Shown here: positions 1,197 through 63,867 of the stretch, in pieces
Position numbering within the stretch: the first letter of the stretch is position 1
Layout: the number at the start of each line of letters is the position of its first letter
NCBI RefSeq assembly: GCF_026278245.1
Contig: NZ_CP111079.1
Coordinates: 2,730,501 to 2,794,500 of the forward strand
Reading direction: 5' to 3'
Length of the DNA: 64,000 bases
Source: Pontibacter kalidii
GTDB taxonomy: Bacteria > Bacteroidota > Bacteroidia > Cytophagales > Hymenobacteraceae
Notes under the pieces: generated by a model
What the model saw: the letters and a program-made list of their open reading frames with translations, nothing else
Database searches by the model: none
Told to the model about the DNA's origin: nothing
Made by a program: the position numbers and the translations under genes

Positions 1197-1231
1197 GTAG
1201 GGGTGAGCTATACTTAAAGATTTTATACTTG

Positions 1232-2767: not shown

Positions 2768-2910
2768 GTTTGATTTAAGTAAAGAATAGCAGCAGTATGA
2801 TGTCACCTCTCTCCTGCATTTCTGTCAGCCCGAACTTTGTGAGAGATCTTTTCCGAACTCCGGGTAGATTTCTCCTATCGCCGAAAGGACAAAGAGCATA
2901 AGCCGCCGTT

Positions 2911-4608: not shown

Positions 4609-4655
4609 GTAGTGTACTGCAAGCTAAAAGTATAAATCCTTTCAGGACAAAGGAA

Positions 4656-4800
4656 TTTTTGACAAAGGACAAAGGTGTTTCAAGTATAAATCGTTGCCCC
4701 TCGGTCAGCCTGTCATCCCCCTCCCACCTTCAAAGGGGGACATCGGTATGCTGCAACTATACTTTGTATGTCTTTCGTCCTTTGTCAAAAAATCCTTTGT
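4656..4800. repeat. Inverted GTCCTTTGTCAAAA repeat between GH20 genes
   Basis: The 199-bp gap between the two GH20 genes holds TTTTTGACAAAGGAC at 4656-4670 and its reverse complement at 4777-4791, followed by another partial copy (TCCTTTGTCAAAT) at about 4793-4805. Related CTTTTGTCAAATAGTCCTTTGTC text occurs at 28437-28465, so this is a dispersed repeat and not a gene-specific terminator. A CCCCCTCCCACC...GGGGG short palindrome lies between the arms. Confidence 0.55.
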
Positions 4801-4807
4801 CAAATAA

Positions 4808-6439: not shown

Positions 6440-6519
6440 GGGGTGAGCGTTTGTTTAGAAGTATGGATTGCTTACTTAACTGAAGGTTTAAATTTAAGTG
6501 GATAATTTCAGGTCGTTCC

Positions 6520-43418: not shown

Positions 43419-44951
43419 TTAAAACTCAGGATAGCCCGGGTTCTGCTTCAGTGCTCTGTTATCTGTTAAAGAGCCTCTGTCGATAGGCCAAAGCAATTTA
43501 TAGGATTCGTCCGGCGTGAGGGTTGTATGCTCATAAACGAAGCTATCACCCATTCTTCGTAAGTCATACCATCTCTTTCCCTCAAAGATAAACTCGAAGA
43601 AGCGCTCCTGCAAAATGGCCTGCTGTGGGTTAGCATCTACCGGCTGGTTTGGATAGCCGTGCACATTGGCATCATAGTTAGCGCCAAACGCACGTTGCCG
43701 GACTGCATTTATCTCGGCGGAAGGGTCTTCCCCCAAGATCAGTTTGGCTTCTGCCAGCAACAGCAGAAGGTCCGCATAGCGGTAGATAGGGTAATCATTC
43801 GTGTACTGCCGCGTGCCGGCGTTCTGCTCTCCCTGGAACTTCTTTACAAATGCACCGGCGATCACATAGTTGCCGTCAACTTTTTCATAGGCTGGCTGGA
43901 TGGTGGCCCACTTCCTGCTGTCCTCGTCATCAAATGTCCTGAAGGTGGAAACCTCGACAGGCGCGCGCAACAGCCCACCCCAGTTATCAACTGCAACGGA
44001 AAACTGTCTGTTTTCCAGGGAGTCATAGAAGTTTGCGATAAGCCCCGTCTGTGGCACAAAGCTGCCTATTGCCTGTGTTGCCTCATTTAACCCGTAGCGG
44101 CTTGCAAAGATGATTTCTGCGTTCCCTTTAGTGTTAATCGAAAAAACATCCGCAAAGTTAGATAGTAGGCCTAACCCAGGTACATTGGTCTGAATATCGG
44201 TTAGGGCGTCCTTCGCCACAAGAGCATCTGCTGCCCCGCCCCCTCTGTAACTCGTCCACAGGTATACCTCGGCCTTCAGCATCTGGGTAGCTGATTTCGA
44301 CCAGAAAGACTTGCCTTCCCGGAAGGAGTAGTCGCCTCCGAAATTGACATTGGAGCTATCGATATCGGCCTTGATCAGCTTCATCACCTCTTCCTGGCTG
44401 GAGGCAGGCTTGGCTAAGTTGGCCACGTCAATCATAGAGATAGGCTCTGTCTGTATCACGACATCGCCCCAGGTTCTGTACATCTGAAAGTAATAGAAGG
44501 CCCGCATCCCATAGGCAATTCCCAGGTAGTAGTCCTTCGTGGCTGGCGCCACCACATCGATAGTGTTGAGTTTACTAATGAGGAGATTAAGCTGGGAAAT
44601 GTTGGTGTAAAATCCTCCGAATCCAGCAACACCGGCATTGTTGGGATCTAATGCCTGCAGCCACAGGCGCTCTATCCCTTGGGTGGCCTCCCCTGTAAAT
44701 GAGGCGCTGGAGCCAGGCTCCAACCCGAATATGTCTGCTCGTAACTCACCCAGTGTCCGGAAGGTTGAATTATGCCCCCGAAAACGTGAATGAACGCCCG
44801 TAACAAAGGCATCAACCTGGTCAGGAGTTTTCCAGTAATTGGCGTCACTGATAGAGCTTACTGGCGCGACGTCCAGCTTATCGGAGCAGGAGCTTGCCAG
44901 CAATGTTACTGTCCCGATGAGCGCGATAAAATATACAATACTCTTTTTCAT
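43419..44951 (-). CDS. SusD-like glycan-binding lipoprotein 3 (sialoglycan unit)
   Basis: Outer-membrane lipoprotein partner of SusC3. The signal ends at Cys22 (LLASSC), followed by SDKLDVAPVSSISDANYWKTPD, a typical mature SusD start. YYLGIAYGMRAFYYFQMYRTWGDVVI and ILQERFFEFIFEGKRWYDLRRMG are hallmark SusD blocks. At 510 aa it is of normal size. It starts 21 bp after susC3. Its position directly before nanA and the sialic acid transporter suggests it handles free sialic acid or sialylated oligosaccharides, like the NanU binder of Bacteroides and Tannerella. Confidence 0.95.
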   Translation of the reverse strand: MKKSIVYFIALIGTVTLLASSCSDKLDVAPVSSISDANYWKTPDQVDAFVTGVHSRFRGHNSTFRTLGELRADIFGLEPGSSASFTGEATQGIERLWLQALDPNNAGVAGFGGFYTNISQLNLLISKLNTIDVVAPATKDYYLGIAYGMRAFYYFQMYRTWGDVVIQTEPISMIDVANLAKPASSQEEVMKLIKADIDSSNVNFGGDYSFREGKSFWSKSATQMLKAEVYLWTSYRGGGAADALVAKDALTDIQTNVPGLGLLSNFADVFSINTKGNAEIIFASRYGLNEATQAIGSFVPQTGLIANFYDSLENRQFSVAVDNWGGLLRAPVEVSTFRTFDDEDSRKWATIQPAYEKVDGNYVIAGAFVKKFQGEQNAGTRQYTNDYPIYRYADLLLLLAEAKLILGEDPSAEINAVRQRAFGANYDANVHGYPNQPVDANPQQAILQERFFEFIFEGKRWYDLRRMGDSFVYEHTTLTPDESYKLLWPIDRGSLTDNRALKQNPGYPEF

Positions 44952-44972
44952 GATCTAAGCAATTTAGTAGCC

Positions 44973-47900
44973 TTAAAACGTAACCTGAACACCCAGTACA
45001 GCGGATCTCGGCGTAGGATAGGTACCCACATACACACCCGTAATCCTACCGCTTGAATCTACAGGAGGCTCTGGGGTCGGGCCGGTGAATTCAGTGATGT
45101 AAAACAGGTTGCCGAAAGTAGTGTAAATCCTAGCCTGAGACAGCACCTTTGTCTTGGAAACTATTCCGCTTGGCACATCATACGACAACGTGAGCTCGCG
45201 CAGGGCCAAGTAGTCTCCCTTCTCGTAGAAGCGGGAGTTATTGCCGTTCAGCACAGAGCCAGCGTTATTGGCTCTGGTATAGTTCTGTTTGGAGCCCCGC
45301 ACCTGGTCGGCAAAGTATACTTTCGGGATGTCAGTCTCGGTGTTGGTGGGTGACCAAGCTTTTTCTATCAGGTCGATATAGTTGAAGGTTCCCTGGTAGT
45401 TACCCAAGGTTCTGGCTACTAAATCGTTGTAAATGGTGTGCCCCAGTGCAAATTCAAAGCGGCTGTACAGTGAGAAGCCTTTATAGGTCAGATTTGCCGA
45501 GAAACCGCCCGTCCATTTTGGGGTAGTGTTACCCAAGCGCACCTGGTCCCTGGTGTCAATGGTATCGTTCTGGTCCACATCCAGCCAGTTCACGTCGCCT
45601 GGGGTGATACGCCCATCTACACCGGCAGGAAGGCCCGGTCCGGTTATCCTGGCGATGGCGTCGTATCTGTTGTTGGCAACTCTTTCTACTTCAGCTTCAT
45701 CTTTAAAGATAGACACCTGCTTGAAACCATAGATCTCGCCCAGTGTGCCGCCCTCCTGCAGGCCGCCCACCCATATCACCTCTCCCGAGGCAGGGTCATA
45801 TATCTGAAAACCGCCCTGTCTGTTGTTCTCATTACCATTGAAAGGCAGTTTGAGGATCTTATTTTTCACAAAGGAAGCGTTGGCGCCTAAGGTCAGGTTC
45901 AGCCCATCCGGCGAGCTAAGGGCAACGGCGTTGGCCGTCAGCTCATAACCTTTGTTCTGGAAGGTACCCAGGTTGGTCCTGAAAGTACCGTACCCTATAT
46001 AGCCCGGCAGGTCCAGGTTGGTAAGCAGATCGCTGGTTCTTCTGTCAAAATAATCGACAATGACAGAGATTCTGTCGTTCAGGAAGCCTACATCCAGGCC
46101 GACGTCTGTTGTTTTGCTCTTCTCCCAGCGCAGGCCGGGGTTCGTAAAGGCTGTGTTCAGGAAGCCCGCCTTGCCATTATAGTTTGTCTGGAGTCCGTAT
46201 ACCCCCTGCACCTCATACCTTCCCAGGCCAGCCACGTTGCCATTCACGCCGTAGCTGACCCGCGGCTTAAAGGTAGAGATATACTTATCCAGCCCGGCGT
46301 TCTGGAAGAACGCTTCCTTGTGCACATTCCACCCAGCCGACATGCCAGGGAAAAAGCCCACTCTGTTCTCTTCCGCTAAGCTGGAAACCGCATCCTGGCG
46401 GAATACGGCCGTAAACAGGTAGCGCTGGTCGTAGTCATAGCTCAGCCTCCCGAAGGCAGAGACGATACGGTACTCTGATATGGAGCTGGTATTGCTGCCA
46501 GGGGCAAAGGTGGTAGAAGCATTTGCCGTGGGAATGTCATCCGTTGGCGCATTCTGTCCCAGCACACGCATAAAGTTTGCTTTCGTTCCGAAATACTCGG
46601 AGCCAATCATAGCATCCACATTGTGCCTTGCCCCAAATGTGGCGGTATAGTTTAACAGGCCATTGTACTGCTGTTGGAAGCTCCTGTCAAAACTAGTGTT
46701 GGAAGTCCTGCTGGTGTTGCTGGTCGGGTTAGCGGCAAATATATTGGCATACGTTTGGGTAGCCCGCTGAAAAGACTGAAACAGGTTCTCGTACAAATAG
46801 CCGTTACCAGTTCCCTTAAAGTATAAACCCGGTAAAATATCCCATTTCACGGATGCGTTGGCCACGATCCGGTTCACCTCGTCATCTACCTCGCGCTTGT
46901 TGAGCCAATACAGTGGGTTACCGTCGCTCGACCCGTTACCCGGGTTAGGCAGTGTTTTCGCCTCATCTAGCCACGGGTTGAAGGTAGGCCAGATAGCCAG
47001 GGTTCTGTAGAGCGTATTCACCTCACCGCCCACAGTACCAACCTGCGAAGAGGTTGAAAGCGTAACGCCGGTACCCACCTCCACGTTCGGCTTCACTTTG
47101 TAGGAGCCGTTCACATCGAGCGCATAGCGCTTGTAGCCGGAGCCTACGATAACGCCATCCTCGTCATAATAGTCAAAGCTGGCAAAGTATTTACCTCTAT
47201 CATTGCCACCCATCACATTTACATAATGCTCCTTCGTATAGGTGTCCCGGAACACGATATCCTCCACTTCCCCCCCATGATCCCTGAAGATGATGGAATC
47301 ACCAGTAGGGTTGTACGGGTCAGCCATTACTTCCCAGCCCTGCGATAACAGGCTTCTATTTTCAGTGTCCAGCTTGCGGATATCAAAGGTAGCCAGATCA
47401 GCAGGATTCGTCAACAGACCGAGGCCTCTGGATGAATTGGCCTGCGCCAGGGTTCTGCCCGCGTTCAGGTAACCCAGCCTGGTATAATAAATATAATCCC
47501 TGGCCCCCAGGTAATTGTACCCCTCTCTTCTTTTATTATATCCACCGGTAAATTTATAGGATACCTGCGCCGTGCCGGCTTTTCCCTGCTTGGTTGTAAC
47601 CAGGATAACGCCATTGTTAGCTCTTGCACCGTAGATAGCTGTCGAAGCAGCATCCTTAAGAATCTCCACAGAAGCAATGTTGTCTGCAGGAACATCGTTG
47701 AGCGATCGAATCACGCCATCTACGATTACCAGCGGCTCCCCTGGACTATTGATAGAGGCCCCGCCGCGCAACAGAATAGATGGCGCAGCCCCGGGTTGCC
47801 CGGTGCTGTTGACTACCCGCACCCCGGGAACAGTACCCTGTAACGCAGTGGCCACGTTCGCGCGCGGCGTACTGGCCAGAACTTCCTGGTCCAGTTTTGC

Positions 47901-48278
47901 CACTGAATTGGTCAGCGTTTCGCGGCTCTGTGTGCCGTATCCCACCACCACAACTTCATCCAGTTTTGCTGTGGCCGGCTTTAAAGTAATGTCCAATGCC
48001 TTTGCAGCACTCTCCACAGCAACTTCGCGGGTCTCAAAGCCAAGGTACCTTACCACCAGCACATCCCCCTCAGACGCTCTAATGGTAAAAGCACCCTCCG
48101 TATCTGTCTGGGTGCCGCGGTCAGTACCCTTCACGTTCAAACTTACACCGATCAGTGGCTGGCTGTTCTCTGAGGAGAGAACACGCCCACTCACGGTGGA
48201 ATTCTGTGCATAGAGGTGAGGGCTTATCAGCAAGCTCCACCCCAGAAAGAGAAACATGAGTAAACGTTTAAGATTCAT
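44973..48278 (-). CDS. SusC/RagA TonB-dependent transporter 3 (sialoglycan unit)
   Basis: Outer-membrane importer, NanO-like by context. The signal peptide (about 1-25, ends LYAQ) precedes a regulatory-like domain (STVSGRVLSSENSQPLIGV). DEVVVVGYGTQSRETLTNSV starts the plug, with SVEILKDAASTAIYGARANNGVI following. The barrel ends in SAVLGVQVTF with terminal Phe. At 1101 aa it is complete. It is divergent from the GntR regulator, and a perfect palindrome sits 20 bp before its start codon. It heads the sialoglycan unit. Confidence 0.96.
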   Translation of the reverse strand: MNLKRLLMFLFLGWSLLISPHLYAQNSTVSGRVLSSENSQPLIGVSLNVKGTDRGTQTDTEGAFTIRASEGDVLVVRYLGFETREVAVESAAKALDITLKPATAKLDEVVVVGYGTQSRETLTNSVAKLDQEVLASTPRANVATALQGTVPGVRVVNSTGQPGAAPSILLRGGASINSPGEPLVIVDGVIRSLNDVPADNIASVEILKDAASTAIYGARANNGVILVTTKQGKAGTAQVSYKFTGGYNKRREGYNYLGARDYIYYTRLGYLNAGRTLAQANSSRGLGLLTNPADLATFDIRKLDTENRSLLSQGWEVMADPYNPTGDSIIFRDHGGEVEDIVFRDTYTKEHYVNVMGGNDRGKYFASFDYYDEDGVIVGSGYKRYALDVNGSYKVKPNVEVGTGVTLSTSSQVGTVGGEVNTLYRTLAIWPTFNPWLDEAKTLPNPGNGSSDGNPLYWLNKREVDDEVNRIVANASVKWDILPGLYFKGTGNGYLYENLFQSFQRATQTYANIFAANPTSNTSRTSNTSFDRSFQQQYNGLLNYTATFGARHNVDAMIGSEYFGTKANFMRVLGQNAPTDDIPTANASTTFAPGSNTSSISEYRIVSAFGRLSYDYDQRYLFTAVFRQDAVSSLAEENRVGFFPGMSAGWNVHKEAFFQNAGLDKYISTFKPRVSYGVNGNVAGLGRYEVQGVYGLQTNYNGKAGFLNTAFTNPGLRWEKSKTTDVGLDVGFLNDRISVIVDYFDRRTSDLLTNLDLPGYIGYGTFRTNLGTFQNKGYELTANAVALSSPDGLNLTLGANASFVKNKILKLPFNGNENNRQGGFQIYDPASGEVIWVGGLQEGGTLGEIYGFKQVSIFKDEAEVERVANNRYDAIARITGPGLPAGVDGRITPGDVNWLDVDQNDTIDTRDQVRLGNTTPKWTGGFSANLTYKGFSLYSRFEFALGHTIYNDLVARTLGNYQGTFNYIDLIEKAWSPTNTETDIPKVYFADQVRGSKQNYTRANNAGSVLNGNNSRFYEKGDYLALRELTLSYDVPSGIVSKTKVLSQARIYTTFGNLFYITEFTGPTPEPPVDSSGRITGVYVGTYPTPRSAVLGVQVTF

Positions 48279-50281: not shown

Positions 50282-53200
50282 ATGCTTCACTTCTTTTTAA
50301 GTCAACCTGACACAGTTTACGCCCTGCAATCTAAAGGGGAACTAAACGCTACCGACATCCAAAAACTAGAATGGTTATTCGGCGACGCCACTCTAATGCA
50401 GGAAGCTGCGCTGAGTGGCTTTTTTGTTGGTCCTCGTGCTGCCATGATCACCCCATGGAGTACCAATGCCGTGGAGATCACCCAGAACATGGGTATTGAT
50501 GGAATCATCCGAATCGAGGAATTTAAAGTAGTAGCGGAAGATTCTACTGATTTTGACCCGATGCTTTCTCAAAAGTATAAGGGGCTGAATCAGGAGATCT
50601 ATACTATAAATATCCAGCCGGAGCCAGTACAGCCTATTACGGATATTGCGGCCTACAACAAGCAGGAAGGCCTGTCGCTAAGTGATGAAGAAGTTGAGTA
50701 CTTAAACCAGCTGGCTGAAAGAGTGGGCCGGCCATTAACCGACTCTGAAGTCTTCGGCTTTTCGCAGGTAAACTCCGAGCACTGCCGCCACAAGATCTTT
50801 AATGGCAAATTTGTGATCGATGGTGAAGAGAAACCAGCTTCGCTCTTCAAACTGATCCGCAAAACATCAGAAACAAACCCGAACAACATCGTTTCGGCCT
50901 ATAAAGATAACGTGGCCTTTATTAAAGGGCCGGTGGTACAGCAGTTTGCTCCAAAACGAGCCGATATTCCTGACTTCTACCAGGTAACTGATTTTGAGTC
51001 GGTAATTTCGATCAAAGCAGAAACGCACAACTTCCCGACGACAGTAGAGCCTTTCAACGGGGCCGCTACAGGTTCCGGCGGGGAGATCCGCGACCGACTG
51101 GCCGGTGGTCAGGGAGCGCTTCCGTTAGCCGGTACAGCGGTTTACATGACAGCTTTATCGCGACTGGAAAAAGACCGCCCTTGGGAAAAAGCCACGCAGG
51201 AAAGAAAGTGGTTGTACCAAACGCCGATGGATATCCTGATCAAAGCCTCGAACGGTGCGACTGATTTCGGTAACAAATTCGGTCAGCCGCTGATCACGGG
51301 CTCGGTACTTACTTTTGAGCACGACGAGAAAGCGGATAAACTGGAGGATCCGAGAAAACTGGGCTACGACAAAGTGATCATGCTGGCAGGTGGCGTTGGC
51401 TACGGCAAAGCCAGCCAGGCGCAGAAAGGGCACCCGAAAACTGGTGATAAGATTGTGATCCTTGGCGGTGAAAACTACCGCATCGGTATGGGCGGGGCAG
51501 CTGTATCGTCTGCTGATACCGGCGAGCACGGAACAGGCATAGAGTTGAACGCCATACAGCGCTCTAATCCGGAGATGCAGAAACGCGCTGCAAACGCTAT
51601 ACGCGGTATGGTGGAAAGTGAGCACAACCCGATTGTCTCCATTCACGACCATGGTGCGGGCGGCCACTTAAACTGCCTTTCTGAGCTGGTAGAAGAAACA
51701 GGCGGTAAAATAGACTTAGACAAGCTGCCGGTTGGCGACCCTACCCTTTCGGCTAAAGAGATCATCGGAAACGAATCGCAGGAGCGTATGGGTCTGGTAA
51801 TCGGTGAAGACGATATTGCTACCCTGCAAAAGATAGCGGATCGTGAGCGTGCCCCTATGTATACTGTGGGTGATGTGACCGGCGACCATCGCTTTACTTT
51901 CCAGTCTTCCACCACTGGCGAGAAGCCGATGGACCTGGAATTGAGCGACATGTTCGGCAGCTCGCCTAAAGTGGTAATGACCGACAAAACAATTAACAGA
52001 ATATACCAGCCGGTAAGCTATGATAAAAACCAGCTGTATACTTACCTGGAGCAACTACTGCAATTAGAGGCCGTGGCCTGCAAAGACTGGCTTACAAATA
52101 AAGTAGACCGCTGCGTGGGTGGCCGTGTGGCGAAACAGCAATGTGCTGGTCCGCTGCAGTTGCCACTGAACAACTGCGGTGTAATGGCGCTGGATTTCCA
52201 GGGCAAAGAAGGTATAGCTACTTCCATTGGACACTCCCCTATCTCGGCCCTAATTGATCCCGCAGCTGGTAGCCGGAATGCCATCGGCGAGTCATTGTCG
52301 AACATCGTGTGGGCTCCGCTGAAGGATGGTTTGAAGAGCGTCTCGCTTTCCGCCAACTGGATGTGGGCTTCTAAGAACGAGGGTGAGGACGCCCGTCTCT
52401 ACAAAGCTGTGGAAGCCTGCTCGGAATTCGCGATTGCCTTGGGCATTAATATCCCAACCGGAAAAGACTCGCTTTCGATGAAGCAGAAGTATAAAAACGA
52501 GGAAGTGATTGCACCGGGTACGGTAATCATTTCTGCCGCAGGCAATTGCAGCAACGTACGACAGGTGGTTGAGCCGGTGTTGCAGTGCGACGGTGGTAAC
52601 ATCTACTACATCAACCTTTCTAACGACGACTTCAAACTGGGTGGTTCTTCTTTTGCACAGATAGTAAACAGAGTCGGTAACGAAACACCGGATATCACCG
52701 ATGCAGCTTCTTTCGGAAATGCTTTCAACACACTGCAGGGCCTAATCAGAGAAGGTAAAATAGAGGCAGGTCATGATATAGGCAGTGGCGGTCTGATCAC
52801 CACCCTGCTGGAGATGTGCTTTGCGGACAACAACCTGGGCGCAACCATCGACCTGACCTCCCTGGGTGAGGAAGACAGCGTCAAAGTATTGTTCGCTGAA
52901 AATATCGGCGTAGTATTCCAAGCGTCGGCAGACGTAGAAGCTACATTAGAAGCGAACAAGGTACCGTTCCACAAAATTGGTATAGCTACCTCTTCTGCCA
53001 CGCTTGAACTGAAAAACGGAGCGGATGCTTACAGCTTCGATATTGCCCGGCTACGAGATACCTGGTTTAAAACCTCGTACCTGCTGGACATCAAGCAAAG
53101 CGGCCCGGTAAGTGCAAAAGAGCGTTTCGACAACTATAAGAAGCACGAACTGAAGTATAAATTTCCAGAAAGATTTGACGGAAAGAAGCCGGTAATTGAT

Positions 53201-53965
53201 ACTTCCAAGCCAAGAATAAAGGCAGCTATCATCCGCGAGAAAGGAAGTAACTCCGAGCGTGAAATGGCCAACGCCATGTACATGGCAGGTTTCGACGTGA
53301 AAGACGTACACATGACGGACCTTATCTCCGGAAGAGAAACGCTGGAGGATATCCGATTCATCGGTGCAGTGGGTGGCTTCTCTAACTCAGACGTACTAGG
53401 GTCGGCAAAAGGATGGGCCGGAGCCTTTATGTACAACGAAAAAGCAAAGACCGCCATCGAGAACTTCTTTAAGCGAGAGGATACGCTGTCGGTAGGTATA
53501 TGTAACGGCTGTCAGCTATTCGTGGAGCTTGGATTTATTACCATGGGGCATGATCAGAAGGCCAGAATGCTGCATAACGTGAGTCAGAAGCACGAAAGTA
53601 TCTTTACGTCCTTAACCATCCAGGAGAACAAATCAGTAATGCTCTCTAGCCTGGCCGGTAGCACATTGGGTGTTTGGGTATCGCACGGCGAGGGCCGCTT
53701 CAGCCTGCCGCATACCGAGGATCAGTACCAGATCGTTGGCAAGTATGGATACGACACCTATCCGGCCTGTCCTAACGGCTCTGACTATAACACGGCCATG
53801 ATTTGCGATGAAACAGGACGTCACCTGGTGATGATGCCGCACATCGAACGATCGCTTCTGCAGTGGCAGTGGGCACACTACCCAAAAGGGCGCCAGGATG
53901 AGGTATCGCCATGGATGGAAGCATTCGTGAACGCCAGAAAGTGGCTGGAGGCAAATGATAATTAA
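50282..53965 (+). CDS. purL: Phosphoribosylformylglycinamidine synthase (large PurL)
   Basis: Purine biosynthesis enzyme converting FGAR, ATP and glutamine to FGAM in the cytoplasm. At 1227 aa it is the long form containing all parts: an N-terminal PurS-like domain (about 1-150), a linker with FSQVNSEHCRHKIFNGKF, two AIR-synthase-like halves (SIKAETHNFPTTVEPFNGAATGSGGEIRDR and SIGHSPISALIDPAAGSRNAIGE), and a C-terminal class I glutamine amidotransferase with the catalytic Cys in VGICNGCQ and HGEGRFSLP. It is a housekeeping gene unrelated to the glycan units. The -7 element and a terminator frame it as a single-gene unit. Confidence 0.98.
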   Translation: MLHFFLSQPDTVYALQSKGELNATDIQKLEWLFGDATLMQEAALSGFFVGPRAAMITPWSTNAVEITQNMGIDGIIRIEEFKVVAEDSTDFDPMLSQKYKGLNQEIYTINIQPEPVQPITDIAAYNKQEGLSLSDEEVEYLNQLAERVGRPLTDSEVFGFSQVNSEHCRHKIFNGKFVIDGEEKPASLFKLIRKTSETNPNNIVSAYKDNVAFIKGPVVQQFAPKRADIPDFYQVTDFESVISIKAETHNFPTTVEPFNGAATGSGGEIRDRLAGGQGALPLAGTAVYMTALSRLEKDRPWEKATQERKWLYQTPMDILIKASNGATDFGNKFGQPLITGSVLTFEHDEKADKLEDPRKLGYDKVIMLAGGVGYGKASQAQKGHPKTGDKIVILGGENYRIGMGGAAVSSADTGEHGTGIELNAIQRSNPEMQKRAANAIRGMVESEHNPIVSIHDHGAGGHLNCLSELVEETGGKIDLDKLPVGDPTLSAKEIIGNESQERMGLVIGEDDIATLQKIADRERAPMYTVGDVTGDHRFTFQSSTTGEKPMDLELSDMFGSSPKVVMTDKTINRIYQPVSYDKNQLYTYLEQLLQLEAVACKDWLTNKVDRCVGGRVAKQQCAGPLQLPLNNCGVMALDFQGKEGIATSIGHSPISALIDPAAGSRNAIGESLSNIVWAPLKDGLKSVSLSANWMWASKNEGEDARLYKAVEACSEFAIALGINIPTGKDSLSMKQKYKNEEVIAPGTVIISAAGNCSNVRQVVEPVLQCDGGNIYYINLSNDDFKLGGSSFAQIVNRVGNETPDITDAASFGNAFNTLQGLIREGKIEAGHDIGSGGLITTLLEMCFADNNLGATIDLTSLGEEDSVKVLFAENIGVVFQASADVEATLEANKVPFHKIGIATSSATLELKNGADAYSFDIARLRDTWFKTSYLLDIKQSGPVSAKERFDNYKKHELKYKFPERFDGKKPVIDTSKPRIKAAIIREKGSNSEREMANAMYMAGFDVKDVHMTDLISGRETLEDIRFIGAVGGFSNSDVLGSAKGWAGAFMYNEKAKTAIENFFKREDTLSVGICNGCQLFVELGFITMGHDQKARMLHNVSQKHESIFTSLTIQENKSVMLSSLAGSTLGVWVSHGEGRFSLPHTEDQYQIVGKYGYDTYPACPNGSDYNTAMICDETGRHLVMMPHIERSLLQWQWAHYPKGRQDEVSPWMEAFVNARKWLEANDN

Positions 53966-54309: not shown

Positions 54310-56406
54310 TTACTGTGGCTGTTGCAAACTGGAAACCCATTTGTTCGCAACTCCCCAGCTTTTCTCAGGCTCATCAGAAGCTATTATAATCAGCTTACCA
54401 CCAGCCATAATCTCCTCATGTGTTAGCCAGTTCCGGTTCAGCTTTTTCCCATTTAAGGTTACCTGTTTGATGTAATAGTTTTCATCTGCGTAATTCTCTA
54501 CCTGAATAGAAAAGCTTTCTCCATTGGCCCACTTTACCTCAGCTGATTCAAAGAGAGGCACATTTAGGTAATACACCGGCCAGCCGACGCAGGCAGGTTG
54601 TATACCTAAAGAAGTTAAAACAAACCAGGAGGACATAGCTCCAGCATCGTCGTCCATTGTTCTGAGGTAAGCCTGCGGCTGATTTTTGTAGATAACACCT
54701 ATGTAGGACCCCACTCCCCGACTGTTGTCGTTAAAGTAATGCTGCACAACAGTATCTACAGCCAACCGATGCATCAAGGCCTGCGATTTCCAAGGTTCTG
54801 AAGTAGCATTGTATAGCAGTGGCACCTGAAGATCCGGCTCATTAGCACGGTTATGGTAATCTTTTCCAAAGAACTCGTCCAGTTGGTTTATAAAAGTTTG
54901 CTCGCCACCTGTCAGTTCTATCAACCCTTTTACATCGAAAGGAACAGACCACCTGTATTGCCAGATTGTGCCCTGGTACATCCCGCGTGCAGACATGCGG
55001 TTCACATCGTCCCGGGTTAAGTCTTTAAAGTCTTTCTCCCAATAGCTTTTATACTCCAAAGCCTTTTGCCTATACTTCTCGCTTAGCTTATCCTGATTCA
55101 GCTCCTTTAAAATCTGCGACAAAGCCCAGGCATCGTAGGAAGACTCTAATGCTTTATCAGGATGTGTATAATCCAGCTTGTCCACTTCCTGCATTAGAGA
55201 ATCCAGAATGGATGGAAAATCGATTTTATACCCTTTACGATAGGCATCCAACAGCACTACGATGGCATGTTCTGTACGCACCGTGTTGGAAGGCTCATGT
55301 GCAGTAGCAAAGTCTTTTTTGCCATACGGATAAAGGTTGGCTATAGAGGAAGCTATGTCCTGGAACCTTTCCGGGTAAGCAAAGGATAGCAAGGGTAACT
55401 GTGTTTTGTAGTTGTCCCAGATGGCCCATCCGTTATAGACGGTGCTTTTGGAAGTTTGCAAAGAGCCATCAATAGCCCGATACGTACCATCTTCCTCCGA
55501 AACTACATATGGTGACTGTACTGCCCGGTAAAGCAAGGAATAAAAAAGCTTTTCTCTTTCAGGGTCCCCCTTTACCTGGATACGGCTCAATAGCTCGTTC
55601 CAGTCACTTATACTCTTTTGCTTTACCTGCTCAAAGGGCTCATGTTTTAGTGCAGCCTTGGCATGCGCTGCATCCACAGATGAGAAAGCTACCTCTGCAT
55701 ATACGTCCTGTTGATCCGGGGCAAACGAAGCTACCAGCTCATGTTCACTTATAGTAGCCCACTTTACCGGTTGCCTAAAGTGCATTGCATAGTAAATACG
55801 GTAGGTACCGACACTACAAGTAGTTTTTGCTTCTATCCAACCACTTAAAGTATTACCACTAACAGTGTGTTCTTCTGCCACAAAGCCTCCTACAAAAGCA
55901 TGGCTTAAATCAATGTAAACGCCCTTTTTACCTACAGGTAACTGGTAATGATGTACACCACTGTTTTTGAAAACAGCAAACTCCGCTTTGATCTTGTTCT
56001 TAAAACCTACCTGGTAATAGCCCGGACCTGCTTTTTCCTCTGATTTGATCAAGGGTGTTGCATCCGGAACATCACCCAAGAATGGTTTAACCAGAATAAT
56101 ACCTCCGCTGCCCAGACAACCTACCCCTTCAAAACGGTTATGTGTGAAACCTAAAAATTCTTTGGCCAAATATTCATACCCTGTATGCGTAGCAGGGTAT
56201 GTCTGGGGGCCTATACTCAACATACTGAAGGGGTAAGAAGCTGCCGGTGACAGTTGCCCATGATCGCCGGAAGAGCCTAGGAAAACATTTACTTTTTCCT
56301 CAGGTGCACCCTTGCCGGCTACCTGCATTTGTTTTTGCTGTGCAACATTGCCCTGTTGCTGGCAGCCACTCAGGATGACTATGAATAATAGAATTAATAA
56401 TCGCAT
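54310..56406 (-). CDS. GH92 alpha-mannosidase-family lipoprotein with Gln in place of the catalytic acid
   Basis: Calcium-dependent exo-alpha-mannosidase family. Lipobox Cys15 (ILSGC) predicts a lipoprotein. VNVFLGSSGDHGQLSPAASYPF near 39-60, NGWAIWDNYKTQLPL near 325-339, and NEPDLQVPLLYN near 522-533 mark GH92. The base aspartates are kept at 585-587 (TMDDDAGAMSSWF). At the general-acid site, the usual YxEGxxWQY reads MYQGTIWQY, giving Gln478 instead of Glu. In the Cellulosimicrobium GH92 enzyme that hydrolyses mannose-1-phospho-6-mannose, the same Glu is Gln, because a phosphate leaving group needs no acid. So mannosyl-phosphate cleavage is predicted; inactivity or an altered linkage is the alternative. 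It lies 87 bp after susD4, behind a hairpin. Confidence 0.9.
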   Translation of the reverse strand: MRLLILLFIVILSGCQQQGNVAQQKQMQVAGKGAPEEKVNVFLGSSGDHGQLSPAASYPFSMLSIGPQTYPATHTGYEYLAKEFLGFTHNRFEGVGCLGSGGIILVKPFLGDVPDATPLIKSEEKAGPGYYQVGFKNKIKAEFAVFKNSGVHHYQLPVGKKGVYIDLSHAFVGGFVAEEHTVSGNTLSGWIEAKTTCSVGTYRIYYAMHFRQPVKWATISEHELVASFAPDQQDVYAEVAFSSVDAAHAKAALKHEPFEQVKQKSISDWNELLSRIQVKGDPEREKLFYSLLYRAVQSPYVVSEEDGTYRAIDGSLQTSKSTVYNGWAIWDNYKTQLPLLSFAYPERFQDIASSIANLYPYGKKDFATAHEPSNTVRTEHAIVVLLDAYRKGYKIDFPSILDSLMQEVDKLDYTHPDKALESSYDAWALSQILKELNQDKLSEKYRQKALEYKSYWEKDFKDLTRDDVNRMSARGMYQGTIWQYRWSVPFDVKGLIELTGGEQTFINQLDEFFGKDYHNRANEPDLQVPLLYNATSEPWKSQALMHRLAVDTVVQHYFNDNSRGVGSYIGVIYKNQPQAYLRTMDDDAGAMSSWFVLTSLGIQPACVGWPVYYLNVPLFESAEVKWANGESFSIQVENYADENYYIKQVTLNGKKLNRNWLTHEEIMAGGKLIIIASDEPEKSWGVANKWVSSLQQPQ

Positions 56407-56493: not shown

Positions 56494-58146
56494 TTACTTC
56501 GTACTTGCCAGGTAATCCAAATACTTTTGCGGCACAGGGAAATAGTTGTGAGTACCTTCTATGAAATTCGCATTCGTTAAATGAGTTCTCCTGGTTTTCT
56601 CCACCTCCAAATACGCATTGATTGTTTCCGCAGCCACTCCCCAGCGTACCAAATCAAAGAAACGATGCCCTTCCATAGCCAGCTCTAACCTGCGCTCCGT
56701 CCGAACGGCCTCACGGGCTGTGGCTTGGTTTGTCCAAGGGGTATTATATGTCTCGATTCTATAGTTGGCGGCTGGTGCTGTTTCTTGCAGGTTCATAACA
56801 TACTGGCTGTCTTTAGCTCTTCCCCTTACCTGGTTCACCACAGCTCTTGCTCCTTCCAGGTCACCCAGCTCAACCAAAGCCTCTGCTTTCCATAGCAACA
56901 AGTCAGCATAGCGGATTATGTAATAATTCAGTGCGCTAATGTAAGGCCAGGTCTTGATCTGGTAAGGAGAGTTGGCGGACACAATTCGCTTTTTAGGCGC
57001 AAAAGGCCCATAGGTTGAAAGATCCCGTGCCCAGCTTGCCTCATACAACACGCCTAAGTCCAGATAAGGTATACCTGGTCTTCCTACTGTATGGTCCAAC
57101 CGTGGATCTACAAAATCTGTTTCGGCAAGGTTCTTATTATCCAGTACCGGCACTCCGTTAGCGCTCGTTTTGTAGGCATTGACAAGGTTTTGAGACGGGC
57201 GGTGAAAGCCATACTGTGAATAGAAAGGGCCACCAGGTGCAGACAAACGATCACCTATACTTCCATTGTAATTATCTGGAGCCCCGTCGAGCACTGAATG
57301 CTGAACAGCAAATATTATCTCAGAGCTGTTATCGTTTTCAGGAAGGAAGACATCCCTGAAGTTAGGAAGTAGGCTGTACTTGTTACTATTGATAACTTCA
57401 TTCGCGGCATCCAGGGCATTCTGCCATTGTCCCTGAAAGATGTAAGTCTTTGCCAGATAAGCTTTCGCCGTCATTTTGTTCGGGCGCCCCACCTCCTCCT
57501 GTTCATTGGGCAGCCTCTCATAGGCGTTGCTGAAATTTTCCTCTATTTTATCCCACAGCTGCTCAGAGGTATATTGGGTGTGAGACACAGCATAGTCCTT
57601 AACAGTTGCAGCTGTTTCGTCTATGTATGGTATGGTGTTGTATATTTTTTTAAGCTCAAAGTAATAATGTCCTCGAAGGAAGTACAGTTCACCCATCCGG
57701 TTCTCTTTTAGAGCCGCATCGTATTCCTGCGAACTCTGAAGCAGCCTCATAGCCTCGTTTGTTCTTTTCACCCCTTCATAAAGCGCCACCCATTTTCGCT
57801 CAATGTCAATAATGGTCGGGTTCGTATTGAATATTTCCATCAGGTGAATGTTATTCTGGTCCCCTGTACCACCACCTCCTTTATAGGCATCATCTGAAAC
57901 CACGTCCCCAAAGCTCCAGTTGGAGGCAGGTGAATTGAAGGCACTGCTAGAGCCATCGTACTGGCCATTTAGCAAACTGTATGCTGCTATGATTGCCCTA
58001 TCAACATTACCTGGGCTTGTCATTTCTGAAGGAGAAATTTCTCCATATGTCATTTCTTCAAGATAGTCGTCAGAGCAGGAAGAAGAAAATATGACAAGAG
58101 CAGTAAAAACTAATTTTGAAGTATTTGTAGTTTTAAAAAAATTCAT
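56494..58146 (-). CDS. SusD-like glycan-binding lipoprotein 4
   Basis: Surface lipoprotein partner of SusC4. The signal ends in a lipobox with Cys24 (IFSSSC), followed by SDDYLEEMTYGEISPSEM. MGELYFLRGHYYFELKKIYNTIPYI and TERRLELAMEGHRFFDLVRWG are SusD blocks, and YFPVPQKYLDYL is the usual C-terminal end. At 550 aa it is of normal size. It is 12 bp after susC4. With only the GH92 gene behind it, the ligand is probably a mannose-containing glycan. Confidence 0.95.
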   Translation of the reverse strand: MNFFKTTNTSKLVFTALVIFSSSCSDDYLEEMTYGEISPSEMTSPGNVDRAIIAAYSLLNGQYDGSSSAFNSPASNWSFGDVVSDDAYKGGGGTGDQNNIHLMEIFNTNPTIIDIERKWVALYEGVKRTNEAMRLLQSSQEYDAALKENRMGELYFLRGHYYFELKKIYNTIPYIDETAATVKDYAVSHTQYTSEQLWDKIEENFSNAYERLPNEQEEVGRPNKMTAKAYLAKTYIFQGQWQNALDAANEVINSNKYSLLPNFRDVFLPENDNSSEIIFAVQHSVLDGAPDNYNGSIGDRLSAPGGPFYSQYGFHRPSQNLVNAYKTSANGVPVLDNKNLAETDFVDPRLDHTVGRPGIPYLDLGVLYEASWARDLSTYGPFAPKKRIVSANSPYQIKTWPYISALNYYIIRYADLLLWKAEALVELGDLEGARAVVNQVRGRAKDSQYVMNLQETAPAANYRIETYNTPWTNQATAREAVRTERRLELAMEGHRFFDLVRWGVAAETINAYLEVEKTRRTHLTNANFIEGTHNYFPVPQKYLDYLASTK

Positions 58147-58158
58147 ACCGTTTTTAGT

Positions 58159-61100
58159 TTAAAGCGTGAAATTAACTCCTAATGTAAAAGTTCTAGATGG
58201 AGGGTAAATACCACGATCAACTCCAATATCTAAGTTGCGATTGCTGGAAGAATAATTTTGGAGGCCTATTTCAGGAGTCATACCACTGTAGTTGGTAATA
58301 GTGAACAAATTAGTTGCCTGCAAGTAAACCCTCAGGTTAATGCCACCAACTTTATCTTTAGGGACATTATAACCCAGCTGCATATTGTATAGCTTGAAAT
58401 AGGAGCCGTTTTCAAGGTAATAAGAAGACGGCCTTATGTTATTGTTAGGATCATCCAACGAAACACGCGGCACTATGGCATCGGGGTTCTCCGGAGTCCA
58501 GGCATCCAGCACAGCAGTACTTTTGTTATAGGAGGCCTGGTTAAAGAACTCTGTCTTGTATTTGGTTAGATTGTAAATGTCGTTTCCTATACTGCCGTTA
58601 AACAACATGCTCAGGTCAAACCCTTTATAGTTCAAACTTACATTAAGGCCAAGTATCAGGTCAGGATGGGGGGACCCGATATAGGTACGGTCATCCCCAT
58701 TAAGCTTACCATCTCCATTTACATCCCTGAACCTTAAATCACCTGGTCGCGCATTGGGCTGTATTCCATGGGAAGTTATTTCCTCCTCACTCTTAAAAAT
58801 TCCGTCAGCCTCGTAACCGTAAAAGGCTCCAATCGGCTGTCCTACTGTACTCCTGGTTATCTCCTGGCCGAAGTTTATACTATGAAGAGAGGAGGCGGGT
58901 ATTCCTAAATAAGAGATGCCGTTTAGCTCGGTCAGTTCGTTACGATACGTTGATGCATTCAGTCCTACTGTATAGGTTAACCCTCCTGCACTTCCAAGAT
59001 AGTTTGCAGCAACATCTAACCCTATATTCTTCATCTGCCCCCCGTTAATCCATGTTCCATCGTTTGTTCCACCATAGGTCGGAGGAATCGGGGAGTATAC
59101 CAGCACATCATTCGTTACCTTATGATAGAAGTCTGCAGTAAGCGCCAGCTTCTCGTTAAATAAGCCTAAGTCAAAGCCCGCGTTTGCCTGCTGGGTTACC
59201 TCCCAGGCCAGATCAGAGTTTGGAACCCTTGTCTGTATCAACCCTTTGTATACAGAGCCCTGAGAGCCATCTATGGCATAATCAGAGTACCTGGCGTTGT
59301 TGTAATAGCTATCCACTGTTGAATAAGATGGTACCTGTTGGTTACCTGTCTGTCCCCAGCTGGCACGTAGCATGAGAGAACTCACGATACCATCCTTCCC
59401 GAAAAAGTGCTCATCACTTACACGCCAACCTGCCGATACTGCCGGAAAAGTTCCCCATTTATTCTGGCTCAGGCGAGACGTTCCGTCTCTTCTGAGAGTA
59501 ACACCCAGAAGGTACTTCTGATCAAAGTTATAATTGATCCTTCCAAAGTAAGAGAGCAGGGACCATTCATTTGCAGTTCCTGTATTTAGTTGATTATCCG
59601 CACCATAAGTGAGATAGCGGAAGTTTGGATCTTCGTATAGAAAATTCTGCCGGGAAGCAGAAAAACCTTCATAGTAGTATTCAATCGCCTCCTGACCTAT
59701 CAAAGCATCTACATTGTGCTTACCAAAGCTTTTAAGATAGTTCAGCGTATTAGACCAGGTTAACTGATAGTTAAAGCTGTTATCGGTGCTTAGCGAGTTA
59801 ACGTTATTTTGGGAGAGGATTTCATCATATTTAGGCGAGAATCCTCTGTAATTATAATTCTGAAAATCAATTCCTAAATTGGTCTTGAATGACAAATCCC
59901 CAAACTCTACTCCTGCAAACACGTTGCCTATGGCAGAGAGTCTTTTTCTAACATTATCTTTTGCCCGGTAGAGACTACCCAATGGGTTGCTGATATCATT
60001 TAAAGGATTACCCCCATAATTGCCATTGATGTCTTTTACAGGAACAATAGAAGGAAACTGGAAGGCATTGTACACGATGCTACCCAATGAACTGTTTGTA
60101 CCCACACTGACATTACGGGTTAAGGAAGCTGAAAAATTTTCTCCTATCGTAACAATATCTTTGATTTTATAGCTGGAGTTAAAGCGGGCCGAGAATCTCT
60201 CAAATCCGGTGTGCTTAATAGTGCCTTCCTCATTAAAATAGCCAAGCGAAAGCGCATGATGGGTCTTATCATCTCCTTTTGATGCGGAAAGATTATAGGA
60301 ATGCACTACCGCAGGCCTAAAAATTTCCTGTACCCAGTCTACATCAGCACTAGGTATCGTTTGCGCATCATCCAGCCATGCAGGTATGACTGCATTACCC
60401 GGGTTGTTTCCGTAAATATCGCTGCTAGGAGTACTTCCATCGTTCTTGGCTGCTTGCCAAAGCATATCTCCGTATTGCTGTGCTCCCAGCATGCGAGGTA
60501 GATTGAAAGCTTTCTGTACTCCTGTATATGCATCCAGGTTGATAACTGTACGGTCTGAGCTACCTTTTTTGGTAGTGATTACCACCACTCCGTTTGCTGC
60601 CCTTGACCCATAAATAGAGGCGGAAGCAGCATCCTTTAATACTTGTATAGTCTCTATATCTGTTGGATTGATGGCGTTCAACCCATTGGAAACAGGTACG
60701 CCATCTATAATGTAGAGAGGGTCATTATTGTTGATAGTTCCATATCCACGTACACGGATACTTACTCCTCCACCGGGGCTGTTATCACTCATTACCTGTA
60801 CACCGGGTAGCCGACCATCCAGCATTTCCTCGACACTGGAAGTAGGAATGGAATTTATATCAGCAGGATCAATTTTAGAAACCGCTCCAGTAATCTCTCT
60901 TCTGTTCTGCGTCCCGTACCCGACTACAACCAATTCATCTAAGCTGGAAGCGTCCGGGACTAAAGAAATATTCAGCCTGGTTTGGTTTCCTACAGAAACC
61001 TCTTGCCGTTGATACCCAATGAAGGTAACAGCAAGCACGTCGGAACCAGCCGGCACAGAAAGCTCGAAATTTCCGTTCGTATCAGAAACTGTACCGACAG

Positions 61101-61308
61101 AAGTGCCCACTACCGCAATAGAAGCTCCCGGCAATGCTTCACCATTTTCGTCAGTTATTTTTCCTAATACAACTTTAGCCTGCTGCTGCACTACTTCTGA
61201 TACTGTTATCTCAAAGAGATTTCCAGCATGAGCAGGCATGGCACCTAACATTGATACGGCACAAATACCATGAAGTATAGGCCTAAAAACATGTAATCTT
61301 ACACTCAT
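58159..61308 (-). CDS. SusC/RagA TonB-dependent transporter 4
   Basis: Outer-membrane TonB-dependent importer heading the GH92 unit. The signal region (about 1-28, ends MPAHA) is followed by a short linker and the regulatory-like domain (VLGKITDENGEALPGASIAV...DTNGNFELSV). DELVVVGYGTQNRREITGAV opens the plug, with TIQVLKDAASASIYGSRAANGVV following. The barrel ends SRTFTLGVNFTL. At 1049 aa it is complete. Sampled GC here is lower than in the glycosidase genes of the first 40 kb. A TACCTTTG element lies 214 bp upstream. Confidence 0.96.
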   Translation of the reverse strand: MSVRLHVFRPILHGICAVSMLGAMPAHAGNLFEITVSEVVQQQAKVVLGKITDENGEALPGASIAVVGTSVGTVSDTNGNFELSVPAGSDVLAVTFIGYQRQEVSVGNQTRLNISLVPDASSLDELVVVGYGTQNRREITGAVSKIDPADINSIPTSSVEEMLDGRLPGVQVMSDNSPGGGVSIRVRGYGTINNNDPLYIIDGVPVSNGLNAINPTDIETIQVLKDAASASIYGSRAANGVVVITTKKGSSDRTVINLDAYTGVQKAFNLPRMLGAQQYGDMLWQAAKNDGSTPSSDIYGNNPGNAVIPAWLDDAQTIPSADVDWVQEIFRPAVVHSYNLSASKGDDKTHHALSLGYFNEEGTIKHTGFERFSARFNSSYKIKDIVTIGENFSASLTRNVSVGTNSSLGSIVYNAFQFPSIVPVKDINGNYGGNPLNDISNPLGSLYRAKDNVRKRLSAIGNVFAGVEFGDLSFKTNLGIDFQNYNYRGFSPKYDEILSQNNVNSLSTDNSFNYQLTWSNTLNYLKSFGKHNVDALIGQEAIEYYYEGFSASRQNFLYEDPNFRYLTYGADNQLNTGTANEWSLLSYFGRINYNFDQKYLLGVTLRRDGTSRLSQNKWGTFPAVSAGWRVSDEHFFGKDGIVSSLMLRASWGQTGNQQVPSYSTVDSYYNNARYSDYAIDGSQGSVYKGLIQTRVPNSDLAWEVTQQANAGFDLGLFNEKLALTADFYHKVTNDVLVYSPIPPTYGGTNDGTWINGGQMKNIGLDVAANYLGSAGGLTYTVGLNASTYRNELTELNGISYLGIPASSLHSINFGQEITRSTVGQPIGAFYGYEADGIFKSEEEITSHGIQPNARPGDLRFRDVNGDGKLNGDDRTYIGSPHPDLILGLNVSLNYKGFDLSMLFNGSIGNDIYNLTKYKTEFFNQASYNKSTAVLDAWTPENPDAIVPRVSLDDPNNNIRPSSYYLENGSYFKLYNMQLGYNVPKDKVGGINLRVYLQATNLFTITNYSGMTPEIGLQNYSSSNRNLDIGVDRGIYPPSRTFTLGVNFTL

Positions 61309-62425: not shown

Positions 62426-62620
62426 TTATTCCTCCTTTGCTGTAAGCCGCTCCCGGAGCCGCTGCATACCCTCCCCTACCTTCACATACAATATTTTAGC
62501 ATTATGCTGCTTACTTCTCAGGTTTGTATGCCCCTGCGTCTTCAACACGCTCTCCATAGGCACCCCGTTAAGAAGCATAGCAGGCAGTATGGAGGTCATC
62601 TGCTTGGATCCCGCGCAGGC
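62426..62620 (-). pseudogene. Tyrosine recombinase (integrase) C-terminal remnant
   Basis: The last 60 or so codons of a phage-type integrase are readable: MLLNGVPMESVLKTQGHTN, then LRSKQHNAKILYVKVGEGM and QRLRERLTAKEE before the TAA at 62426-62428. The pattern matches LLNxGVPxExVxxxLGHTxxxTTQxYAKI. The catalytic Tyr is Asn (KQHNAKI) and the HxxR block upstream is lost, probably with a frameshift (DLHTACYA is readable in the next frame near 62590). It is a dead relic lying beside a tmRNA 3' fragment and tRNA genes. Confidence 0.75.
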
Positions 62621-63428: not shown

Positions 63429-63438
63429 AATTTTCAGG

Positions 63439-63512
63439 TGATCCCGTTTGGATTCGAACCAAAGACCTACTGCTTAGAAGGCAGTTGCTCTATCCAGCTG
63501 AGCTACGAGACC
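63439..63512 (-). tRNA. tRNA-Arg (anticodon TCT)
   Basis: The minus strand starts GGTCTCGTAGCTCAGCTGG and has the anticodon stem-loop ACTGCCTTCTAAGCAGT with TCT, then the T-arm TTTGGTTCGAATCCAAA. Acceptor strands GGTCTCG and CGGGATC pair with two G-U wobbles. CCA is not encoded. Confidence 0.95.
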
Positions 63513-63550
63513 AGCGTTTGTCAGGAGAGCGGTTGCTCTACCCTTTAAAC

Positions 63551-63582
63551 AAAAAATTTCGGAATCTCTTCCGAAATTTTTT
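63551..63582 (-). terminator. Perfect hairpin terminator after tRNA-Pro
   Basis: AAAAAATTTCGG (63551-63562) and CCGAAATTTTTT (63571-63582) form a 12-bp stem with an 8-nt loop, two bp after the tRNA-Pro 3' end. Confidence 0.88.
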
Positions 63583-63584
63583 AG

Positions 63585-63658
63585 TCGGGGTGGCAGGATT
63601 CGAACCTACGACCTCCACATCCCAAATGTGGCGCGATACCGGGCTACGCTACACCCCG
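63585..63658 (-). tRNA. tRNA-Pro (anticodon TGG)
   Basis: The minus strand starts CGGGGTGTAGCGTAGCCCGG, has anticodon loop ATTTGGGAT with TGG, and T-arm TAGGTTCGAATCCTG. Acceptor CGGGGTG pairs with CACCCCG; the discriminator is A. The C1 start and TGG fit proline. Confidence 0.96.
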
Positions 63659-63714
63659 AACTATTTTTCGCTTTCGGACTATCCGGTGTTAAACCGTTTC
63701 ATCTAATTGCGATG

Positions 63715-63744
63715 CAAAGGTAAGTGAAGATTTCAGATTTGCAA
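63715..63744 (-). promoter_or_regulatory. Promoter of tRNA-Pro
   Basis: On the minus strand a TTG (63744-63742) precedes TACCTTTG (63722-63715) by 19 nt, matching the Bacteroidota -33/-7 layout. It lies 56 bp before the tRNA. Confidence 0.65.
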
Positions 63745-63780
63745 AAGCTTTTTTTAACTTTTTTCGTCGTCATCTTACAG

Positions 63781-63867
63781 CGGAGAAGGGGGGATTCGAA
63801 CCCCCGGTACCGTTACCAGTACGGCAGTTTAGCAAACTGCTGGTTTAAGCCACTCACCCACCTCTCC
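63781..63867 (-). tRNA. tRNA-Ser (anticodon GCT)
   Basis: The minus strand starts GGAGAGGTGGGTGAGTGG. The anticodon loop TTTGCTAAA carries GCT, a long variable arm (GTACTGGTAACGGTAC) follows, and the T-arm is GGGGGTTCGAATCCCCC. Acceptor GGAGAGG pairs with CTTCTCC; the discriminator is G. The 87-nt class II form fits serine. Confidence 0.96.

Follow-up and report, generated by a model that had tools for sequence, protein, structure and literature searches.

A GH92 protein with glutamine at the general-acid position, encoded in a SusC–SusD unit of Pontibacter kalidii, is a predicted mannosyl-phosphate hydrolase

We analyzed a 64,000-nucleotide stretch of DNA (the window) from Pontibacter kalidii, a member of the Hymenobacteraceae within the class Bacteroidia of the phylum Bacteroidota (contig NZ_CP111079.1, positions 2,730,501 to 2,794,500), and focused on a gene for a glycoside hydrolase of family GH92 that carries glutamine (Gln) at the position of the catalytic acid. 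The open reading frame (ORF; 54310–56406, minus strand) starts with ATG and encodes 698 amino acids, in which the N-terminal and catalytic GH92 domains are both matched above their curated Pfam cut-offs (PF17678, E = 2e-32, 113 bits with a cut-off of 34.5; PF07971, E = 5e-88, 296 bits with a cut-off of 24.6). The predicted fold combines a β-sandwich with an (α/α)6 barrel, as expected of a GH92 member, and a lipoprotein-type signal, ILSGC, was read by eye at amino acids 11–15. Upstream on the same strand lie genes for a SusD-family protein (550 amino acids; 56494–58146; PF07980 and PF14322) and a SusC/RagA TonB-linked outer-membrane protein (1049 amino acids; 58159–61308; TIGR04056, E = 4e-266). 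The order is SusC–SusD–GH92, with gaps of 12 base pairs (bp) between SusC and SusD and 87 bp between SusD and GH92 and no enzyme gene in between. This is the layout of a polysaccharide utilization locus, in which a SusC–SusD pair adjoins a glycan enzyme on one strand, and it agrees with the preliminary description of the window, where the GH92 gene stood alone behind its own SusCD pair. The gene past GH92 (50282–53965) is on the opposite strand and resembles PurL by eye. On the other side of the unit, a 57-amino acid ORF (62426–62599, minus strand), which by eye resembles the C terminus of a tyrosine recombinase, is located near three tRNA genes (63437–63867), an arrangement that would fit an acquired operon.

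The motif YQGTIWQY (54955–54978, minus strand) begins at amino acid 477 and places Gln478 (codon at 54973–54975) at the acid position of GH92. Two alignments match Gln478 with Glu535 and Asp587 with Asp637 of BT3130, identified in passages of PMC5930347 as the general acid and the general base, respectively. An ordinary inverting GH92 α-mannosidase uses glutamate (Glu) as the general acid and Asp as the base; the P. kalidii protein retains the latter in Asp587, but has Gln478 in place of the former. Asp587 belongs to the Asp585–Asp587 triplet (DDD; 54646–54654, minus strand) of the TMDDDAG motif, and the NEPDLQVP loop (amino acids 522–529; 54820–54843, minus strand) is complete, so the substitution, the intact base aspartates and the intact loop are all as previously described. 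The slower alignment, which fills the gaps left by the first one at BT3130 Trp390 and Met400, pairs Val376 of the TVRTE motif (amino acids 375–379; 55270–55284, minus strand) with the Met that, according to passages of PMC5930347, stacks beneath the sugar ring in BT3130.

By both sequence and fold, the best match to the protein is CcMan5, a GH92 enzyme of Cellulosimicrobium cellulans (PDB 2XSG and 4AQ0), which has the same Glu-to-Gln change (Gln536, in LYQGTLWQY), as stated in the preliminary description. The two proteins have in common the motifs YQGT(I/L)WQY, TMD(D/N)DAG, ANE-x-D, and TVR-x-E, and CcMan5 possesses the equivalents of Asp48, Glu379, and Asp525. CcMan5 cleaves a mannose-phosphate-mannose diester (passages of PMC5930347), and a recombinant C. 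cellulans α-mannosidase acts on yeast Man-1-P-6-Man glycans to yield mannose-6-phosphate (passages of PMC9246025), although the linkage number is stated differently in a passage of PMC9522356. In the passages of PMC5930347, PMC10167667, PMC9246025, PMC9522356, and PMC12858847, CcMan5 is the sole GH92 enzyme named with mannosyl-phosphate activity. The exchange of Glu for Gln strongly impairs ordinary GH92 enzymes (passages of PMC10167667), which fits a substrate whose leaving group can depart without acid assistance. CcMan5 comes from an actinobacterium and is reported to carry a CBM32 module (passages of PMC10167667), whereas the P. kalidii enzyme consists of the two GH92 domains alone and is encoded within a SusCD unit.

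Gln at the acid position is a trait of a clade rather than of one gene. The closest homologue, from Pontibacter korlensis, is 93% identical, and the gene is present in 5 of the 37 Pontibacter genomes searched, that of P. kalidii included; the 3 other GH92 proteins of P. kalidii all have Glu. By our summary count, Gln occupies the acid position in all 120 listed protein homologues, a figure to be read alongside the 8 gaps in the acid column of a 160-row alignment (120 homologues of the P. kalidii protein, 34 homologues of CcMan5, the P. kalidii protein and CcMan5 themselves, BT3130, and the 3 other P. kalidii GH92s). That column contains 142 Gln and 10 Glu in addition to the gaps, and settles the 33 of 120 homologues missed by a motif search. 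The Glu rows (BT3130, the 3 P. kalidii GH92s, and 6 distant proteins) all fall outside the clade, and the gaps come from 7 partial proteins and 1 distant one. A scan of species genomes with sequence patterns and tblastn returned 334 relatives, of which the best 80 were fetched, the other 254 standing outside the count; one of the patterns, [RP]TMD[DN]DAG, is in its own right a signature of the clade. Gln was found in 80/80 fetched loci, including 7 with a changed Trp and 4 with a changed base motif that were read by hand. Conversely, GH92 frames of at least 450 amino acids collected from 19 genomes with no filter on the acid residue (78 frames, 64 of them distinct once repeats were removed) comprised 63 with Glu and a single one with Gln, which has the YQGT motif of the clade. 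Since this set consists of the best Pfam matches, in which Gln-types are under-represented, it documents the retention of Glu by Glu-types but gives no measure of the frequency of Gln-types.

A tree built from 91 sequences grouped all 39 Gln-types, CcMan5 among them, in one clade (support 0.999) separate from 52 Glu-types, indicating, despite long stems, shared ancestry with CcMan5 apart from the Glu-type GH92s. The Glu-type set was partly chosen by a motif with an acidic residue before GN, and its Glu column is thus partly a matter of construction. The alignment and tree with characterized GH92 enzymes that the preliminary description called for revealed no intact acid Glu in the P. kalidii protein. 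Twenty positions are nearly fixed in the Gln-type clade and rare outside it. The ring-stacking position is Met in 52/52 Glu-types and Val in 39/39 Gln-types; Val376, Arg377, and Glu379 are invariant across the 39 Gln-types, and Thr375, present in 38/39, takes the place of the Cys at the −1/+1 boundary of BT3130. Judging from their location beside the scissile bond, Arg377 and Thr375 are candidate phosphate ligands, although the structural model is of low confidence close to them, at amino acids 364–372.

Three of the clade-specific residues are carboxylates, as would be required if the enzyme were an ordinary α-mannosidase that recruits another acid in place of the missing Glu, for example, Asp48, Glu379, or Asp525. 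All three are found in 39/39 Gln-types but in only 0%, 0%, and 2%, respectively, of the 52 Glu-types. CcMan5, however, has all three and nevertheless acts on a phosphodiester (passages of PMC5930347). Asp585, a further candidate, does not single out the clade, its equivalent being Asp also in 16/52 Glu-types, and the phosphodiester-type neighbors encoded near part of the relatives (see below) likewise speak against a substitute acid, which we consider unlikely.

The gene is under purifying selection, with a ratio of nonsynonymous to synonymous substitution rates (dN/dS) of 0.09 relative to P. korlensis and 0.08 relative to Pontibacter silvestris, where dS exceeds 1, and its function is maintained. 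Conservation, the linked positions and dN/dS together rule out a chance or decayed Gln. The acid Gln and the lack of Trp at the O4-binding position might still be taken as marks of a catalytically dead binding protein, or pseudo-glycosidase. Yet the protein keeps Asp587, Asp331, and other positions common to nearly all Glu-types (27 in all), dN/dS is approximately 0.09, and the Gln-bearing homologue CcMan5 is reported to be active (passages of PMC5930347), making a dead protein highly improbable.

Taken together, the sequence, the predicted fold, the clade, and the shared positions point to CcMan5, and part of the relatives have phosphodiester-type neighbors. The protein is therefore probably a CcMan5-type GH92 enzyme in a minimal SusCD unit, with mannosyl-phosphate hydrolysis as its predicted activity, in line with the original proposal. 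It would act as an exo-hydrolase of the cell envelope on substrates imported by the SusC–SusD pair encoded just upstream. In a putatively Ca2+-dependent −1 site, Asp587 would activate a water molecule for attack on α-mannose with inversion, releasing mannose from mannosyl-1-phosphate esters or diesters. The phosphate would depart without protonation, and because such a leaving group needs none, the acid Glu can be replaced by Gln478.

To characterize the genomic context in relatives, the neighbor proteins of the 80 loci were clustered by BLAST, with SusC and SusD named by sequence cluster and by eye. A DUF218 cluster occurred near 29/80 loci (2 members checked against Pfam), a GDPD-DUF4996 cluster near 18/80 (3 members checked against Pfam), and a cluster designated c10 near 15/80 (1 member checked). 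A script detected the GDPD motif AHRG..PEN in 16 of the 18 GDPD loci, and the GDPD matches structure 3I10, a putative GDPD, at 8e-68; the DUF218 partner had no match in PDB. The checked c10 member had no Pfam or NCBIfam match and hit 2 pentatricopeptide-type proteins in PDB, neither of them over a significant stretch, on which grounds a by-eye guess that it was a propeller was dropped. Many Mucilaginibacter loci display the order DUF218–c10–SusC–SusD–GH92(Gln)–GDPD, and in other loci GDPD lies upstream of GH92 or on the opposite strand; it is also found in Pedobacter (L066 and L076), Hymenobacter (L054 and L059), and Pontibacter mucosus (L040). P. silvestris, P. qinzhouensis, and Cesiribacter have SusC–SusD–GH92–DUF218, and Flavobacterium, some Hymenobacter, and a Paludibacter metagenome-assembled genome have SusD–DUF218–GH92. 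In Hymenobacter loci L054 and L059, GDPD–SusD–SusC–c10 and DUF218–GH92 diverge from one middle point. Other settings were also seen: 18 Pedobacter loci encode an LmbE-like protein, in most cases together with a symporter-like protein and a small one next to GH92 (names assigned by eye), and 8 Chitinophaga-type loci have gpsA nearby (one checked against Pfam), which may be plain synteny. In Rufibacter (L010), the Gln-type GH92 gene sits between 2 further GH92 genes, and in P. korlensis (L096:17750–19000), a type I phosphodiesterase/nucleotide pyrophosphatase gene (PF01663), preceded by SusC- and SusD-like genes, follows the Gln-type GH92 gene at a distance of approximately 7 kb on its downstream side.

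For comparison, 40 regions of approximately 20 kb around Glu-type GH92 genes, 2 of which (L148 and L149) overlap, were taken from 9 genomes chosen for a Gln-type locus with DUF218 or GDPD. DUF218 was found in 0/40, GDPD in 0/40, and c10 in 1/40 of these regions (Fisher p of 1e-6, 4e-4, and 0.01, respectively, with loci counted as independent though they are related). On the Gln-type side of this comparison, repeats (L097 = L006 and L099 = L040) bring the DUF218 and GDPD counts from 31 and 19 of 84 loci to 29 and 18 of 82. Independently of the active site, the DUF218 and GDPD neighbors suggest phosphodiesters. The same neighborhoods bear on whether the enzyme, instead of cleaving a phosphodiester glycan, could act on another activated mannoside, namely GDP-mannose, a lipid-linked phosphomannose, or mannose 1-phosphate in free form. 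Gln478 by itself implies nothing beyond a leaving group without need of an acid, and many Pedobacter loci have no SusCD-type gene directly beside GH92. Against such a substrate, the adjoining SusC–SusD pair in P. kalidii and many relatives points to an external oligomeric nutrient, and we regard this alternative as improbable.

Several observations weigh against the mannosyl-phosphate assignment. The P. kalidii protein is only 29% identical to 4 aligned proteins of the CcMan5 side, and the split between the two is deep (stems of 1.18 substitutions per site on the P. kalidii side and 0.63 on the CcMan5 side), so that donor or acceptor could have shifted and long-branch attraction may have contributed to the grouping. 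The O4-binding Trp of BT3130 is Trp in 51/52 Glu-types and 0/39 Gln-types; that the sugar would be mannose is therefore deduced by way of CcMan5. In the structural model, the active-site loops 364–372, 464–484, and 521–524 have predicted local distance difference test (pLDDT) scores below 50. As for the neighborhood, the P. kalidii operon has neither DUF218 nor GDPD, no DUF218 was seen in 51/80 loci and no GDPD in 62/80, some of the stretches being short, and the control comparison draws on genomes selected for DUF218 or GDPD and on related, non-independent loci. Among 198 genomes of the class, GDPD was detected in 4 (E 1e-40) and the Gln-type GH92 in 3 (E 1e-100), and the one genome with both (G250) has them on different contigs. 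In 3 GDPD stretches from genomes of the class (L175, L176, and L178), SusC- and SusD-like genes, identified by eye, adjoin a GDPD that belongs to the family seen in the relatives, and no Gln-type GH92 was found there, unlike in the P. kalidii unit; GDPD therefore has other partners too. The phylogenetic profile across the class, too sparse and not in favor, was rejected as support for a GH92–GDPD link, and the separation of the two genes in one genome slightly lowered our confidence in the mannosyl-phosphate reading and in the more speculative one given below.

The part of the preliminary interpretation that gained no support, in contrast to the Glu-to-Gln change, the parallel with CcMan5 and the predicted activity, is the assignment of the unit to phosphomannan or phosphorylated N-glycans. 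A search of the P. kalidii genome for GH76 (PF03663, E 0.001) gave no match, whereas the same search was positive in 2 of 14 control genomes; this search was for the endo-α-mannanase that marks a yeast α-mannan utilization locus. Phosphomannan or a phospho-N-glycan is a possible substrate. Enzymes of the GDPD family release glycerol phosphate from diesters, and the GDPD partner that recurs in relatives suggests a substrate in which mannosyl phosphate and glycerol phosphate occur together; a glycerol-phosphate-bearing substrate fits at least as well as the other two. In the P. kalidii genome, the P. silvestris DUF218 protein had no match, in a search run without a positive control, and the GDPD had weak matches only. 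A family search recovered 2 DUF218 proteins, one of which (417 amino acids; genome positions 2814863–2816116, corresponding to L182:8864–10117) combines a DUF218 part with a C-terminal half that appears repeat-like by eye and sits in another SusCD-like locus approximately 28 kb beyond GH92. It matches the partner family over only approximately 50 residues and was not counted as the partner of the operon.

The GH92 α-mannosidases BT3990, BT2199, BT3130, BT3965, and others have the two-domain fold, the base Asp, and the Asp331 equivalent of the P. kalidii protein but differ from it in the acid Glu, the Met beneath the sugar, and the Trp at O4, and most Glu-type alignment rows shown have an HGNEP or HGNQP loop in place of its own. 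Bacteroides loci for yeast α-mannan or N-glycan utilization likewise join SusCD to GH92 (passages of PMC5930347), whereas the P. kalidii unit has no second mannan enzyme and its genome no GH76 match, and GDPD and DUF218 are what part of the relatives encode in their place. What is new here is a Bacteroidota clade of Gln-type GH92s with an importer and, in part, phosphodiester-type partners: the best 80 relatives all have Gln, many lie beside the importer, and some beside GDPD or DUF218. Among the literature matches listed, none concerned Gln-type GH92s of Bacteroidota or GH92 together with GDPD. If the prediction is correct, the clade would be a source of new enzymes that uncap Man-1-P-6-Man glycans, and some Gln-type genes, annotated by sources as "putative alpha-1,2-mannosidase," would need a corrected label. 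More speculatively, and in our view doubtful, these could be dedicated Bacteroidota loci for mannosyl-1-phosphodiester glycans that contain glycerol phosphate as well (teichoic-type polymers or phosphoglycolipid head groups, for example), a kind of locus met in none of the listed literature matches. SusCD would import the glycan, GDPD would cut the glycerol-phosphate side and the Gln-type GH92 the mannose-phosphate side, DUF218 would be a phosphoester enzyme of the pathway, and P. kalidii would possess the minimal, three-gene form.

The remainder of the window and its left flank encode sialidases, GH20, GH29, GH84, GH2, and sulfatases. Positions 1–9048 (a sulfatase, 2 GH20s, and GH84) form, with the left flank (L183 and L184), a long host-glycan region; the flank contains 2 GH20s, 2 GH29s, one of which straddles the window start, GH125, and 2 Glu-type GH92s. 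These nearby genes fit a glycoprotein-feeding organism, without tying the SusC–SusD–GH92 operon to such feeding. A sialic-acid utilization locus (28499–49145) encodes 2 BNR sialidases, a DHDPS-family lyase, a GlcNAc 2-epimerase, an esterase, GH2, an α-galactosidase, and a GntR-type regulator. It also includes SusD- and SusC-like ORFs, recognized by eye (43419–48278), and an 899-amino acid protein in which a NanM-like propeller is fused to a sodium symporter.
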